Source of the DNA: Dyella sp. S184
Lineage (GTDB): Bacteria > Pseudomonadota > Gammaproteobacteria > Xanthomonadales > Rhodanobacteraceae
DNA: 64,000 bases
Direction of reading: 5' to 3'
NCBI RefSeq assembly: GCF_009766065.1
Contig: NZ_LMUE01000009.1
Span: 128,812-192,811, forward strand
Below the pieces are notes generated by a model. The model did not search any database and was not told the origin of the DNA. It saw only the letters and a list, made by a program, of their open reading frames with translations. Both the position numbers and the translations under genes were made by a program. Of the stretch, positions 29,740 to 36,306 are shown one piece after another. Position 1 is the first letter of the stretch, and every line of letters begins with the position of its first letter.

Positions 29740-30807
29740 TCAGTCTCGCGCACTCAGCCATTGATGGATAGCCGGTGGTACCTCGCGCTGCGCACGGCCG
29801 GACACATAGATGCCGATGTGGCCACCCTTGAACGCCAGCTGGGTGTAGTCGGTGGTGCCAACATGCTTGCCCATCGCACGCGAGGCATCCGGTGGCACCA
29901 GATGATCCTGCTCGGCGAAGATGTTCAGCACCGGGTGGGTCACCTTGCCCAGATCCACCAGTTTGCCGCCGATCTCCAGCGTGCCTTTGACCAGTTTGTT
30001 GCCCTGGTAGAAATCCTTGATGAACTGGCGGAACGCTTCACCTGCCTGATCAGGCGAATCGAAGATCCAGCGCTCCATGCGCAGGAAATTCTCCAGCTCG
30101 GTCGGGTTGTCGAGGATGTCGACCATGCCGATGTACTTCTGCTGGTTCAGTCGCACCGGCTTCAGCGTGAGGTAGACGTAGTTCATCAGCCCGGCGGGGA
30201 TATTGCCCATGGTGTCGACAAACAGGTCCACATCCATGTTGCGGCACCAGTGCGACAGCATGTTGTCCGGCGTGTGGAAGTCCACCGGCGTGACCATGGT
30301 GATCAGGTTCTTCACCTTGTCCGCATGCAGCGCGGTGTAGCTCAACGAGAATGCACCACCCTGGCAGATGCCGAGCAGGTTGATCGCATCCAGTCCGTGC
30401 CGCTGGCGCACGACATCGACGCAACGATCGAGATAACCGTTGATGTAATCATCCAGGGTCAGCCAGCGATCGGCACCATCGGGATAACCCCAGTCGATCA
30501 GATAGACATCCTCGCCCTGCTCCAGCAGGTTGCGCACCATCGAGCGGTCGGCCTGCAGGTCGGTCATCCACACCGTGTTGACCAGCGCATAGACGATCAG
30601 CAACGGCGTCTTCGCGGTGGGCCTGCTGTGGCCCTCGAAGTGCCATACCTTCAGCTTGTCCTCGCTATAGACCAGTTTGCGCGGCGTATTCGCGTATTCG
30701 GGCTCGCGCATGCTGCGCAGGTGGCCCATGCCGGCGGCAAGCTTGCGCTGGAAGGTGGCAATGTCGCCCAGGGCCTTGGCCGGATCGATGCGCAATGGCG
30801 TATGCAT
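29740..30807 (-). CDS. phaC: Class III polyhydroxyalkanoate synthase catalytic subunit
   Basis: PhaC polymerises (R)-3-hydroxyacyl-CoA into storage polyester on granules. At 355 residues it has the short class III length. The alpha/beta-hydrolase core has the lipase-like box GICQGG with nucleophile Cys148. The catalytic Asp is in AEQDHLVPP and the His in FKGGHIGIYVSG. PhaE, the obligate partner of class III enzymes, is encoded immediately upstream (12 bp gap), which settles the class. Monomer-supply genes phaA and phaB are not in the window. Confidence 0.93.
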   Translation of the reverse strand: MHTPLRIDPAKALGDIATFQRKLAAGMGHLRSMREPEYANTPRKLVYSEDKLKVWHFEGHSRPTAKTPLLIVYALVNTVWMTDLQADRSMVRNLLEQGEDVYLIDWGYPDGADRWLTLDDYINGYLDRCVDVVRQRHGLDAINLLGICQGGAFSLSYTALHADKVKNLITMVTPVDFHTPDNMLSHWCRNMDVDLFVDTMGNIPAGLMNYVYLTLKPVRLNQQKYIGMVDILDNPTELENFLRMERWIFDSPDQAGEAFRQFIKDFYQGNKLVKGTLEIGGKLVDLGKVTHPVLNIFAEQDHLVPPDASRAMGKHVGTTDYTQLAFKGGHIGIYVSGRAQREVPPAIHQWLSARD

Positions 30808-30819
30808 GACGAGGTCTCC

Positions 30820-31899
30820 TTACTTACGCTTGCGCGGGTTGGTACCGGCGGGAGCAGCCTTGCTGCTGACGGTCTTGCGCGGCGCCACAACCGGAGCCTT
30901 GGCGATGGCCTTCTTTACTGCCACAGCATCCGGTTTCGCAGTCGCGCGCTTCTTCGCTGCGGGCGCTGCTGGTGTCGGGCTACTGGCAAACTGATGCTTG
31001 AGTGCAGCCAGTTCGCGTCGCAACGTCGCAATCTCATCGGAATGGTTTTCCGGCGAAGGCACCTGGTTCGCGCGTAGCTCGCGCCGCAATGCCTGCAATC
31101 GTTCACCGAGACTCGACACCTCGCTGCGGCTCGGCACACCCAGCTGCTGGCACATCTGTTCGGTCTGCTGTTGCTGCAACTGGCGCACGTGCATCTGCTT
31201 GTTGACCATGTCGCCGTAGGCATCGCGAAACTCGTCCGACAGCGCGATCTCGGCATAGGCTTCCTCGGCCGAATCCACCCACAGATCGTACAACGCCTTC
31301 AGCGAATCGATCTGACGACCAAGATCGGTATGTTGCGCAAGTTTGTCCTGCAAGCGTTCCATGCCCTGCTTGTTGGCGCGCTGGATCAGGGCCTGATAGC
31401 GCGCCGAAGCCTGCAGCGATTCCATGATCGCCGCTGCCGTCGCCTGCTGCTGCATCTGCTGCTCGCGGTTCAGGCCGAAGGCCGGTGTCGGCCCATGCGT
31501 GCCCGGCAGATCGCCAAAGCCACTGTGCTGCGCCGCCTGCATCCACGACTGCCATTGCCGGGAAAACCCCTCTGCGCCGGCGCTATCGATACCGCCAAAC
31601 GCCTGCGCAAACGGCTGGCTGGCGCCGCCGAACATCTGCTGCAGCTGCTGGCGCCAATCGGTTGGCTGGGCCGCGGCACCGCCGGCGGCTGCGCCCTGCA
31701 TCCAGTCGAAATAACCCTTCAGGCCGGCCAGGGTGCGTTCGAGTGTGTCGCTGCTGGAAGTGGGAGCTGCCGGCGGCGTGAAAAACGGATTGACGGCAGG
31801 CTGAGGCTGTTGCTGCTGCAACTGCCGTGCCCAGGCATCCCAGGACTGTTGTGCGAGTGCCTGATAGTCCCTGATGAAATCGTTTGCCGGGTCAGCCAT
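30820..31899 (-). CDS. phaE: Class III polyhydroxyalkanoate synthase subunit PhaE
   Basis: PhaE is the non-catalytic partner of class III PhaC. The product is 359 residues from ATG 31899, with GAGGA about 7 nt upstream; a more upstream in-frame ATG at 31986 overlaps the terminator of pnp. PhaE-typical segments are RDYQALAQQSWDAWARQ, GLKGYFDWMQ and SLKALYDLWVDSAEEAYAE. A Gln-rich region and coiled coil (ERLQALRREL) follow. The last 55 residues are Ala/Lys/Pro-rich and strongly basic, like histone H1 or phasin-type DNA-binding tails, which might tether granules to the nucleoid. Confidence 0.9.
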   Translation of the reverse strand: MADPANDFIRDYQALAQQSWDAWARQLQQQQPQPAVNPFFTPPAAPTSSSDTLERTLAGLKGYFDWMQGAAAGGAAAQPTDWRQQLQQMFGGASQPFAQAFGGIDSAGAEGFSRQWQSWMQAAQHSGFGDLPGTHGPTPAFGLNREQQMQQQATAAAIMESLQASARYQALIQRANKQGMERLQDKLAQHTDLGRQIDSLKALYDLWVDSAEEAYAEIALSDEFRDAYGDMVNKQMHVRQLQQQQTEQMCQQLGVPSRSEVSSLGERLQALRRELRANQVPSPENHSDEIATLRRELAALKHQFASSPTPAAPAAKKRATAKPDAVAVKKAIAKAPVVAPRKTVSSKAAPAGTNPRKRK

Positions 31900-31971
31900 G
31901 GGTGCATCCTCGTGCAATGTTCCCTGCATCCTAGCAAAAGCCTGTTGCACAAAATCATCGGCTTCAAAACG

Positions 31972-32001
31972 CACAAGGCCCGGCATGAGCCGGGCCTTGT
32001 G
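31972..32001 (-). terminator. Terminator of pnp
   Basis: CACAAGGCCCGGC, 4-nt loop, GCCGGGCCTTGTG: a perfect 13-bp stem 20 bp after the pnp stop. On the minus strand CGTTTTG follows, a short U-tract. It separates the pnp operon from phaE. Confidence 0.75.
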
Positions 32002-34533: not shown

Positions 34534-35526
34534 CTATTCTACTGATGGGCGTGGTGTTTCAACAAGTGCGCCGTGGTCCATCAGTACAAATTTATCGTCC
34601 GGCGGCAGGTTGAAGCCGCGCAGGATGCGTGTACGCCCTTCGACATCGAGTTCAAGAAGCGCCAGCAGGGCTCCATCGCTGGCATACGCCGCGCAGCGGC
34701 CAGCCGGCGGCGAGGGAATCAACTGGATCGGCTGCCCGCGTGAAATCGCCATGCTTTGCGGTTCATCGAGCTGTACGGCCGGCAGATCGGACAAACCCGC
34801 CGATATTGGCAACAGGTGCCCCAGCAAGGCTTCGTCACCCTGTTCAGCCGCCTGCTGCAGCGCGTCCAGCGTCACCATGCGTGGTCCGCGGAACGGTTCC
34901 ACCCACAGGCGCCGTAGTGCCGTCAGATGGGCGCCACAGCCCAGATCCTCGCCGATATCCACGGCCAGTGAGCGTACATAGGTGCCGGAACCGCACTCCA
35001 CGTACAGCTGTAATGTTTCAGCATCGCGCGACAGCAGGTCGAGCCGGTGCACGTCCACCTCGCGCGGCGGCACGTCGATGGTTTCGCCACGACGCGCTTT
35101 GGCATATAGCCGCTCACCGTCCTGCTTGATTGCCGAATACACCGGTGGCACCTGGGTGATGCGACCACGCAATTTGGCCAGCGCCGCTTCGATGCGCGCA
35201 TCGTCAAGCAGTGGCACCGCACGCTGCTGCACGATGTCGCCTTCACAATCGGCCGAGTCGGTGGTGATGCCCAGCCGGCAATCGGCCACATAAGCCTTGC
35301 GCGCGCCGAGCAGGCTGCCGGCCAGTTTGGTCGCCTCGCCGAAGCACAGCGGCAACAGGCCGGTGGCCAGCGGATCGAGTGCACCTGTATGGCCGCCCTT
35401 GGACGCGCGCAGCAGACGCCGCACGGTTTGCAGCGCCTGGTTGGAACTCAGCCCGATCGGCTTGTCGAGCAGCACGATGCCGTGCAGGTCACGGTGCTTG
35501 ATACGCGGCAGACGAAGACGACTCAT
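34534..35526 (-). CDS. truB: tRNA pseudouridine55 synthase
   Basis: TruB makes pseudouridine 55 in the T-loop of tRNAs. The product is 330 residues from ATG 35526, in line with the family (314 in E. coli). The catalytic aspartate is Asp51 in GGHTGALDPLATG. GIVLLDKPIGLSSNQ at the N-terminus, YSAIKQDGERLYAKAR and GTYVRSLAVDIG are conserved blocks. A C-terminal PUA-like region follows. The reading frame stays open upstream into the fold-back element, but that stretch is not part of TruB. The fold-back element separates it from rbfA. Confidence 0.96.
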   Translation of the reverse strand: MSRLRLPRIKHRDLHGIVLLDKPIGLSSNQALQTVRRLLRASKGGHTGALDPLATGLLPLCFGEATKLAGSLLGARKAYVADCRLGITTDSADCEGDIVQQRAVPLLDDARIEAALAKLRGRITQVPPVYSAIKQDGERLYAKARRGETIDVPPREVDVHRLDLLSRDAETLQLYVECGSGTYVRSLAVDIGEDLGCGAHLTALRRLWVEPFRGPRMVTLDALQQAAEQGDEALLGHLLPISAGLSDLPAVQLDEPQSMAISRGQPIQLIPSPPAGRCAAYASDGALLALLELDVEGRTRILRGFNLPPDDKFVLMDHGALVETPRPSVE

Positions 35527-35532
35527 CGGTGC

Positions 35533-35800
35533 AGAGCCTGTTCCAAGTCCCCGGATACCCCGCGCTGGGAGCTGTTTGCGCGCAGGCCAAGGAAGAGCGA
35601 AGGAGTGGACGTCCGCCCACGACTGAGCGATGACGCCGGCATGCGGGCAAACAGACCCAGCCCGAAGGGTTGCCATTGAGTGGCCGCCATGCGGCAGCGC
35701 GCGGCTTGACCTGACGGCCAGCCAGGCGCTGCGCCACGCACTACCACCTGGCGGCCACTCAATGACAACGCGGGGTATCCGGGGACTTGGAACAGGCTCT
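35533..35800. repeat. 268-bp fold-back (MITE-like) element with perfect 32-bp terminal inverted repeats
   Basis: Ends 35533-35564 and 35769-35800 are exact 32-bp reverse complements, starting AGAGCCTGTTCC. Nested inside are a second perfect pair (35674-35689 with 35749-35764, 16 bp) and an imperfect pair (35574-35589 with 35638-35653). No transposase is encoded, and no clear target-site duplication is seen next to the ends. It fills nearly all of the rbfA-truB gap, 6 bp upstream of the truB ATG. It could be a non-autonomous mobile element or a large structured RNA in the operon. Confidence 0.85.
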
Positions 35801-35816
35801 TACCCAACGTTCCGGT

Positions 35817-36215
35817 TCAATCCTGCTTGTCGTCGGTTGATTTGTCGTCCTTGAGCGGCACCAGGTCACGTGCCTGCTGGCGCAGCAAGGACTCGATGCG
35901 CTCGCCCTTGTCGACCGAGTCGTCATACTTGAACTTCAATTCCGGCACCCGGCGCATGCGCATGCCGCTGTGTGCCAGCGAATGACGGATTTCGTGACCG
36001 ATCTCGTTCAGGGCCTTCACGGTCGGCAAACCCTGCTCGGGCAGCATCGCGGTCACCCATACCGTGGCCCAGTCCAGGTCACGGGTGATTTCCACGTCCG
36101 ACACGGAGACCGACGGCAGCCCGTGATCACGCACGGCTGCATGCACCAGCAGGCCCAGTTCGCGACGCAACTCGGCACCGATGCGGTCGGTGCGTTTGAA
36201 ATCACGGGATGGCAT
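35817..36215 (-). CDS. rbfA: Ribosome-binding factor A
   Basis: RbfA assists maturation of the 30S subunit and cold adaptation. The product is 132 residues from ATG 36215, where MPSRDFKRTDRIGAELRREL matches the family. SVSDVEITRDLDWATVWVTA and LNEIGHEIRHSLAHSGMRMRRVPELKFKYDDS form the KH-type fold. The C-terminal tail is charged (KDDKSTDDKQD). In-frame upstream ATG codons lie in the infB-rbfA spacer and do not fit the family start. It sits between infB and truB in the conserved operon. Confidence 0.95.
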   Translation of the reverse strand: MPSRDFKRTDRIGAELRRELGLLVHAAVRDHGLPSVSVSDVEITRDLDWATVWVTAMLPEQGLPTVKALNEIGHEIRHSLAHSGMRMRRVPELKFKYDDSVDKGERIESLLRQQARDLVPLKDDKSTDDKQD

Positions 36216-36235
36216 AAAAAAACCTGAGTTGTGAG

Positions 36236-36294
36236 TTGAGAGAAGTGAGAAACGAGAGGAAGCCATGGCCATTACTCTTTTCTCACTCCTGTGC
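36236..36294. repeat. AGTGAGAAA-type inverted repeat between infB and rbfA
   Basis: AGTGAGAAACGAG on the left and CTCTTTTCTCACT on the right pair imperfectly around a loop of roughly 25 nt. It resembles in style the GGGAAT inverted repeat between sucB and lpd: short purine-rich units on one arm and their complements on the other. Confidence 0.5.
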
Positions 36295-36306
36295 ACTCGT
36301 ATCTGC

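Follow-up and report, generated by a model that had tools for sequence, protein, structure and literature searches.

A 268-bp fold-back element between rbfA and truB of Dyella sp. S184, located at positions 35533–35800 of the 64,000-nt stretch analysed here (the window), very probably represents a non-autonomous transposable element of the miniature inverted-repeat transposable element (MITE) type, mobilised in trans by transposases of the IS5 family of insertion sequences (IS). Terminal inverted repeats, dispersed copies, empty sites, a target site duplication (TSD) at family level and ends matching those of autonomous IS were all found, and covariation between paired positions strongly suggests that this mobile element carries a structured nucleic acid. 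The initial annotation had suggested either a new non-autonomous element or a structured RNA in the rbfA-truB junction; the multicopy family, the empty sites, the TSD statistics and the IS with matching ends bear out the former, and the latter is contradicted by the data below.

Repeat family, empty sites and target duplication

Three further relatives of the window element occur in its own genome, and strong matches were obtained in 29 of 45 Rhodanobacter genomes. The core pattern retrieved copies in Rhodanobacter, Dyella and Fulvimonas among the matches listed, and at least 114 distinct full-length copies, mostly 266–269 bp in length, were extracted from these three genera. Their stems vary freely in all frames, as in a short, non-coding sequence bounded by terminal inverted repeats, and the earlier statement that no transposase is present holds for the element itself. 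The window copy found no match on plasmids, its relative L313 none in phages and the core pattern none in IMG/VR, and no match was obtained in E. coli; weak plasmid matches to relatives of the element were seen in Xanthomonas sacchari, Methylophaga, Halomonas and Azotobacter.

The rbfA-truB junction was empty in all 27 of the other Rhodanobacter genomes where it could be read, and because of these empty sites the window element is a copy of a mobile element and not a fixed RNA of this junction. A typical empty junction reads GTTGGGTGCTGCTGAACCGATG(truB), the filled one GTTGGGTAA-GAGCC...GGCTC-TGCACCGATG, and the family occupies over 100 unrelated sites. The pattern named at the outset as favouring an RNA, one copy at an identical position in every relative, was looked for and is not what the genomes show. 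The target of the window copy was likely TGA, whose duplicates have since become TAA and TGC by decay, a few adjacent bases being lost or never there; relative L192, reading GTTGGGCTGTGAGCCGATG at the junction, provides an example of adjacent bases already absent. The copy was inserted between rbfA and truB in its own lineage only and is by now probably an immobile relic, because its TSD is lost and no such IS was found in its own genome. The perfect arms, taken in the initial annotation to imply recent movement or strong selection, do not imply the former, given the decayed TSD and the lack of a matching IS in the same genome; selection is one possible cause, and arm correction at the DNA level by template switching also keeps arms identical.

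Across the family, the flanks take the form CTN-AGAGCC...GGCTCT-NAG. TNA is present on both sides in 53 of the 114 copies, with the middle base equal in 28 of the 53 against 14.8 expected, a value as high being reached in 1 of 10,000 shuffles of a set from which related copies were only partly removed. A palindromic flank instead of a TSD was rejected, since the middle bases are equal in 28 cases and complementary in 9. Thus the absence of an obvious target duplication, as initially annotated, is true of the window copy (GCA and TTA, plus strand) and untrue of the family. According to the family TSD, the transposable unit spans 35534–35799 (GAGCCTG...CAGGCTC), the outermost A and T being assigned to the TNA target triplets. 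The elements of genomes G852 and G626 are flanked by a TA duplication, those of Rhodanobacteraceae by TNA.

Of 184 edges (92 distinct sites), 35 have a duplicated triplet that serves as the stop of a frame at least 100 codons long, against 1.6 at control offsets. Such copies may have survived selection and need not point to stop-codon targeting, because the duplication rebuilds the stop and leaves the insertion harmless. A preferred orientation with respect to neighbouring genes, apparent with a crude gene caller (30 vs 11), was dropped after the cleaner stop-codon test gave 16 vs 19.

Putative partner insertion sequences and distribution across the class

In Fulvimonas sp. R45, which also harbours several near-identical elements with TGA duplications, an IS5-family, IS427-group-like IS has terminal repeats matched by the family ends (GAGCCTGTTC...). 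This IS is 846 bp in length, with ends GAGCCTGTTCAAAGTCTC, a TSD, and DUF4096 and DDE_Tnp_1 in two overlapping frames, its transposase matching NF033580, PF13340 and PF01609; its provisional IS427-group label comes from a comparison of features with the published group (PMC3281130). Eighteen bases of the IS end are reproduced exactly in several element copies, and beyond the ends nothing visible is in common between the two. A match to a known IS end, initially listed as evidence against a new element, hence came true in part only, the ends being those of an IS5-family element. A second pairing was found in the distant gammaproteobacterium G626, where the element GGGCCTGTTAACACTA and the resident IS GGGCGTGTTAACACTA both stand in TA duplications (ends GGGCCTGTTAACACTATC in the elements and GGGCGTGTTAACACTAAT in the IS, both TA-flanked). 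Other members of the family carry related IS whose ends are of the GARCCTGTTCAAAGTCT type or GAACCTGTTCACGATCTT, as do Xanthomonas and Aromatoleum.

Some further IS were recorded on the way. In Fulvimonas sp. R45 (L261:1377-2609), the partner IS (1447-2292) is nested in an internally deleted copy of itself, the outer copy having its ends at 1377 and 2609 and a TGA duplication. About a dozen near-identical GAGCCTGTTCAAAGTCTC-type IS copies are present in genome G082 (L274-L300). An intact IS5-type IS of genome G042 was rejected as the Rhodanobacter partner, having other ends (AGAGGGTGTCGACAAAAC); four copies of this AGAGGGTGTCGACAAAAC-ended IS (L220, L223, L224, L225) lie in CTGAG targets, a target type like that of the element.

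Searched through the order, the interior was detected in 81 of 398 genomes, a second family included. The ends in this second family differ (CTAGGGCGTGTCATC..., AGGGCCTGTCTACGC...), and the arms match each other equally well; its genus g67 is probably Xanthomonas, since one copy matches Xanthomonas sacchari weakly. With an arm A covariance model, whose E-values are rough, the arm was recovered in 36 of 369 genomes sampled across the class, the majority belonging to other orders, and often as identical copies; the class-wide alignments retain the core GCAAGG.AG...GAG / CGA...AT.ACGC. The interior is common to Rhodanobacter, Xanthomonas and unrelated gammaproteobacterial families, and the end sequences vary by lineage.

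Anatomy and conserved fold

The features of the window copy and its surroundings are the following.

35533–35800, plus strand: whole element in canonical orientation, GGGAGCTGTTTG arm first (62-copy gapless alignment and flank statistics)
35533–35564, plus strand: left terminal inverted repeat, outer 32 bp perfect against the right one
35769–35800, minus strand: right terminal inverted repeat
35531–35533: left target triplet GCA (TGC on the coding strand), a putative decayed TNA; TGA there in empty-site relatives
35800–35802: right target triplet TTA (TAA on the coding strand)
35564–35661, plus strand: arm A of the three-way junction (alignment columns 32–129)
35591–35636, plus strand: arm A core (columns 59–104), with four tandem G-A mismatches, covarying Watson-Crick pairs between them and a small hairpin inside (46 diverse sequences)
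35669–35769, plus strand: arm B of the three-way junction (columns 137–237), the most variable arm, pairing kept
34534–35526, minus strand: truB, flanking gene, ATG at 35526–35524, 6 bp from the element (open frame and relatives' junctions)
35817–36215, minus strand: rbfA, flanking gene, stop codon at 35819–35817, 16 bp from the element (open frame; DNA similarity in 45 of 45 Rhodanobacter genomes)

The two genes are presumably truB and rbfA, as we named them from the translated sequences and the operon order known to us. The coordinates and the nested fold-back described initially proved correct, as did the distance of 6 bp between the element end at 35533 and the truB start: the terminal arms (35533–35567 and 35766–35800) are 35 nt long and 97% complementary, perfect over the outer 32 bp, and the inner inverted pair (35669–35705 and 35733–35769) is 37 nt long and 84% complementary. 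Folded as minus-strand RNA, the copy reaches -204.4 kcal/mol against -119.1 +/- 5.2 in 200 dinucleotide shuffles (z -16.3), so that the fold-back is real and far beyond chance. In the window copy the canonical strand, most likely the structured one, runs antisense to the rbfA-truB transcript.

RNAalifold predicted, from 62 gapless copies, an outer stem with arms A and B. Double changes were observed in 65 of 100 pairs, and the share of paired cells is 96.9%, with 85.4% in shuffles and 31–39% once the partner is shifted by one to three columns. This is covariation beyond the controls for relatedness, as expected of a structured RNA, and DNA-level arm correction could yield the same signal. No family of Rfam 15 matched at or above its gathering score. 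Single-step mismatches are strand-symmetric in the outer stem (G.T/A.C 54/47) and in arm B (65/66), indicating a process at the DNA level, template switching for instance. In arm A, on the canonical strand, G.T prevails over A.C (49 vs 18), and the four tandem G-A mismatches are retained in 37–46 of 46 diverse sequences, with the intervening pairs covarying. Since arm correction should eliminate such mismatches, something retains them; the canonical strand is most likely the one that folds, as the other would show C-T mismatches. The tandems may form sheared pairs.

Comparison of copies with similar flanks and copies at different sites gave ratios of double to single changes of 0.43 and 0.96, respectively, at 85–90% identity, and of 0.10 and 0.56 at 90–95%, from pairs that are few and non-independent, with some same-site double changes existing. 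From the fewer same-site double changes, resident copies seem to decay, with the fold being preserved in moving lineages. In same-site pairs A.C changes outnumbered G.T changes (105 to 44), mostly owing to a single group of related copies, and this excess was left out of account.

In copies of two species (L037:942-1233 and L041:1501-1795), an insert of 24–27 bp with CCTGCCTTCGCAGGGGCAGG occupies the identical point of arm B, as though the element had received a second short palindrome. Outside the element, the infB-rbfA spacer contains a purine-rich imperfect inverted repeat (window 36233–36298; 24-nt arms, 79%), and the same spacer in other Rhodanobacter species (L192, L201, L210) contains unrelated, differing hairpins, so that it seems to be a spot of turnover for fold-back sequences. 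Two neighbouring minus-strand open frames at window 29740–31986 resemble, by eye, a two-subunit PhaC/PhaE-type polyhydroxyalkanoate synthase.

Proposed mobilisation, alternatives and significance

We propose that IS5-family transposases, IS427-group-like and encoded by IS of ≈810–850 bp with 18-bp ends and, in Fulvimonas, two overlapping frames, would recognise the element ends and transfer it as double-stranded DNA to TNA or TA targets, insertions at stop codons being favoured among the survivors since the duplication rebuilds the stop. The old non-coding interior would fold as a three-way junction whose stems stay paired despite sequence change, the tandem G-A mismatches of arm A being presumably structurable on one strand only; this interior persists across Gammaproteobacteria, with ends varying by lineage and resembling those of resident IS in two genomes. 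As single-stranded DNA of the canonical strand or as RNA, the fold might help the mobilisation or the tolerance of the element. On a more tentative level, the interior could be a class-old selfish structured module (RNA or single-stranded DNA) needed for propagation, switching its transposase partner via the terminal repeats and having its arms symmetrised by inter-arm copying; this is a serious possibility that we place somewhat short of probable.

Several observations weigh against this picture. The window copy has no TSD, and no IS with matching ends was found in its genome or in Rhodanobacter. The element end GAGCCTGTCTGTGAATAAATC of genome G779 differs from the IS427-like IS found there, and its partner was not found; conversely, G082, with many matching IS copies, gave no element match in the order-wide interior search. 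GRGCCTG ends are short, so the similarity of ends between lineages could be in part convergence on the IS5-family consensus. Finally, the mismatch symmetry of the outer stem and arm B is as expected without selection on one strand.

This symmetry also fits a plain MITE whose perfect arms are a by-product of replication template switching, the fold being maintained by mutation and functionless. Template switching is documented to keep hairpins paired (PMC8794818), and many pairs show double changes far above half-steps. Such an origin appears rather unlikely, as arm A keeps its G-A mismatches and its bias of G.T over A.C, the core sequence is conserved class-wide and, at equal identity, same-site copies have fewer double changes than different-site copies. 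Domestication by the host, with the element kept as a terminator, RNase III site or mRNA stabiliser, would agree with copies at gene ends and within operons, and has precedents in the Correia elements of Neisseria transcripts, which are cut by RNase III, and in ERIC, which affects mRNA decay (PMC10969869). It is nevertheless improbable here: few sites are common between species, same-site copies gather one-sided changes, the window copy has its structured strand antisense to the operon, and gene orientation is unbiased in the cleaner test. A palindrome of the repetitive extragenic palindrome/bacterial interspersed mosaic element (REP/BIME) type, spread by a REP-associated tyrosine (HUH) transposase (RAYT), would likewise be intergenic, palindromic and multicopy, and such repeats are abundant in Stenotrophomonas (PMC2817692); the TNA or TA duplications, the DDE-type IS ends, the length of ≈268 bp and the three-way junction make this origin very improbable, and duplications are present where REP/BIME should have none, no search for RAYT genes having been made. 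As for a structured RNA belonging to the rbfA-truB operon, the element does sit between both genes and would be in their transcript, but with the junction empty in 27 relatives and copies elsewhere this is refuted, and we give it practically no weight.

The preferred reading, a MITE-type element mobilised by IS5-family transposases, can be set beside other known systems. HEARO/omega RNA and IS110 bridge RNA are conserved non-coding folds in mobile DNA accompanying a protein gene, whereas the element has no protein gene and no Rfam match. REP/BIME sequences and their RAYT are similar in being intergenic palindromes of the same order, but are much shorter, depend on HUH enzymes and are not known to make such target duplications. 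ERIC, Correia (CREE/NEMIS), RUP and QMITEs are alike in being short, non-coding, intergenic and multicopy, with terminal repeats and target duplication, and differ in sequence; to our knowledge, conserved G-A tandems in a three-way junction, or terminal repeats that have changed between lineages, are found in none of them. ERIC, too, is present in several families of Gammaproteobacteria (PMC10969869). The IS427 group of the IS5 family (and the neighbouring IS1031 group) has similar terminal repeats, GARCCTGTT..., and small TA or TNA duplications, and IS427-group IS have two overlapping frames (PMC3281130), as in the partner IS of ≈810–850 bp; the element differs in having no transposase, only the ends being in common, and in its TNA duplication in Rhodanobacteraceae, against the 2 bp listed for most IS of the group (PMC3281130). 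No published description of the element was found in the literature, which is weak evidence as subscription journals were poorly covered.

The conserved interior, together with differing ends, separates the element from the MITEs known to us. MITEs are usually regarded as short-lived deletion derivatives of a single IS; one non-coding interior with lineage-specific ends suggests instead that transposases have been parasitised over long periods and that, in a DDE-transposase system, a folded single strand may play a part. The family also offers a natural data set to separate selection on the fold from template-switch arm correction, both of which leave covariation. If the module reading is true, it is the fold that would define this mobile parasite, and not its ends or a gene.
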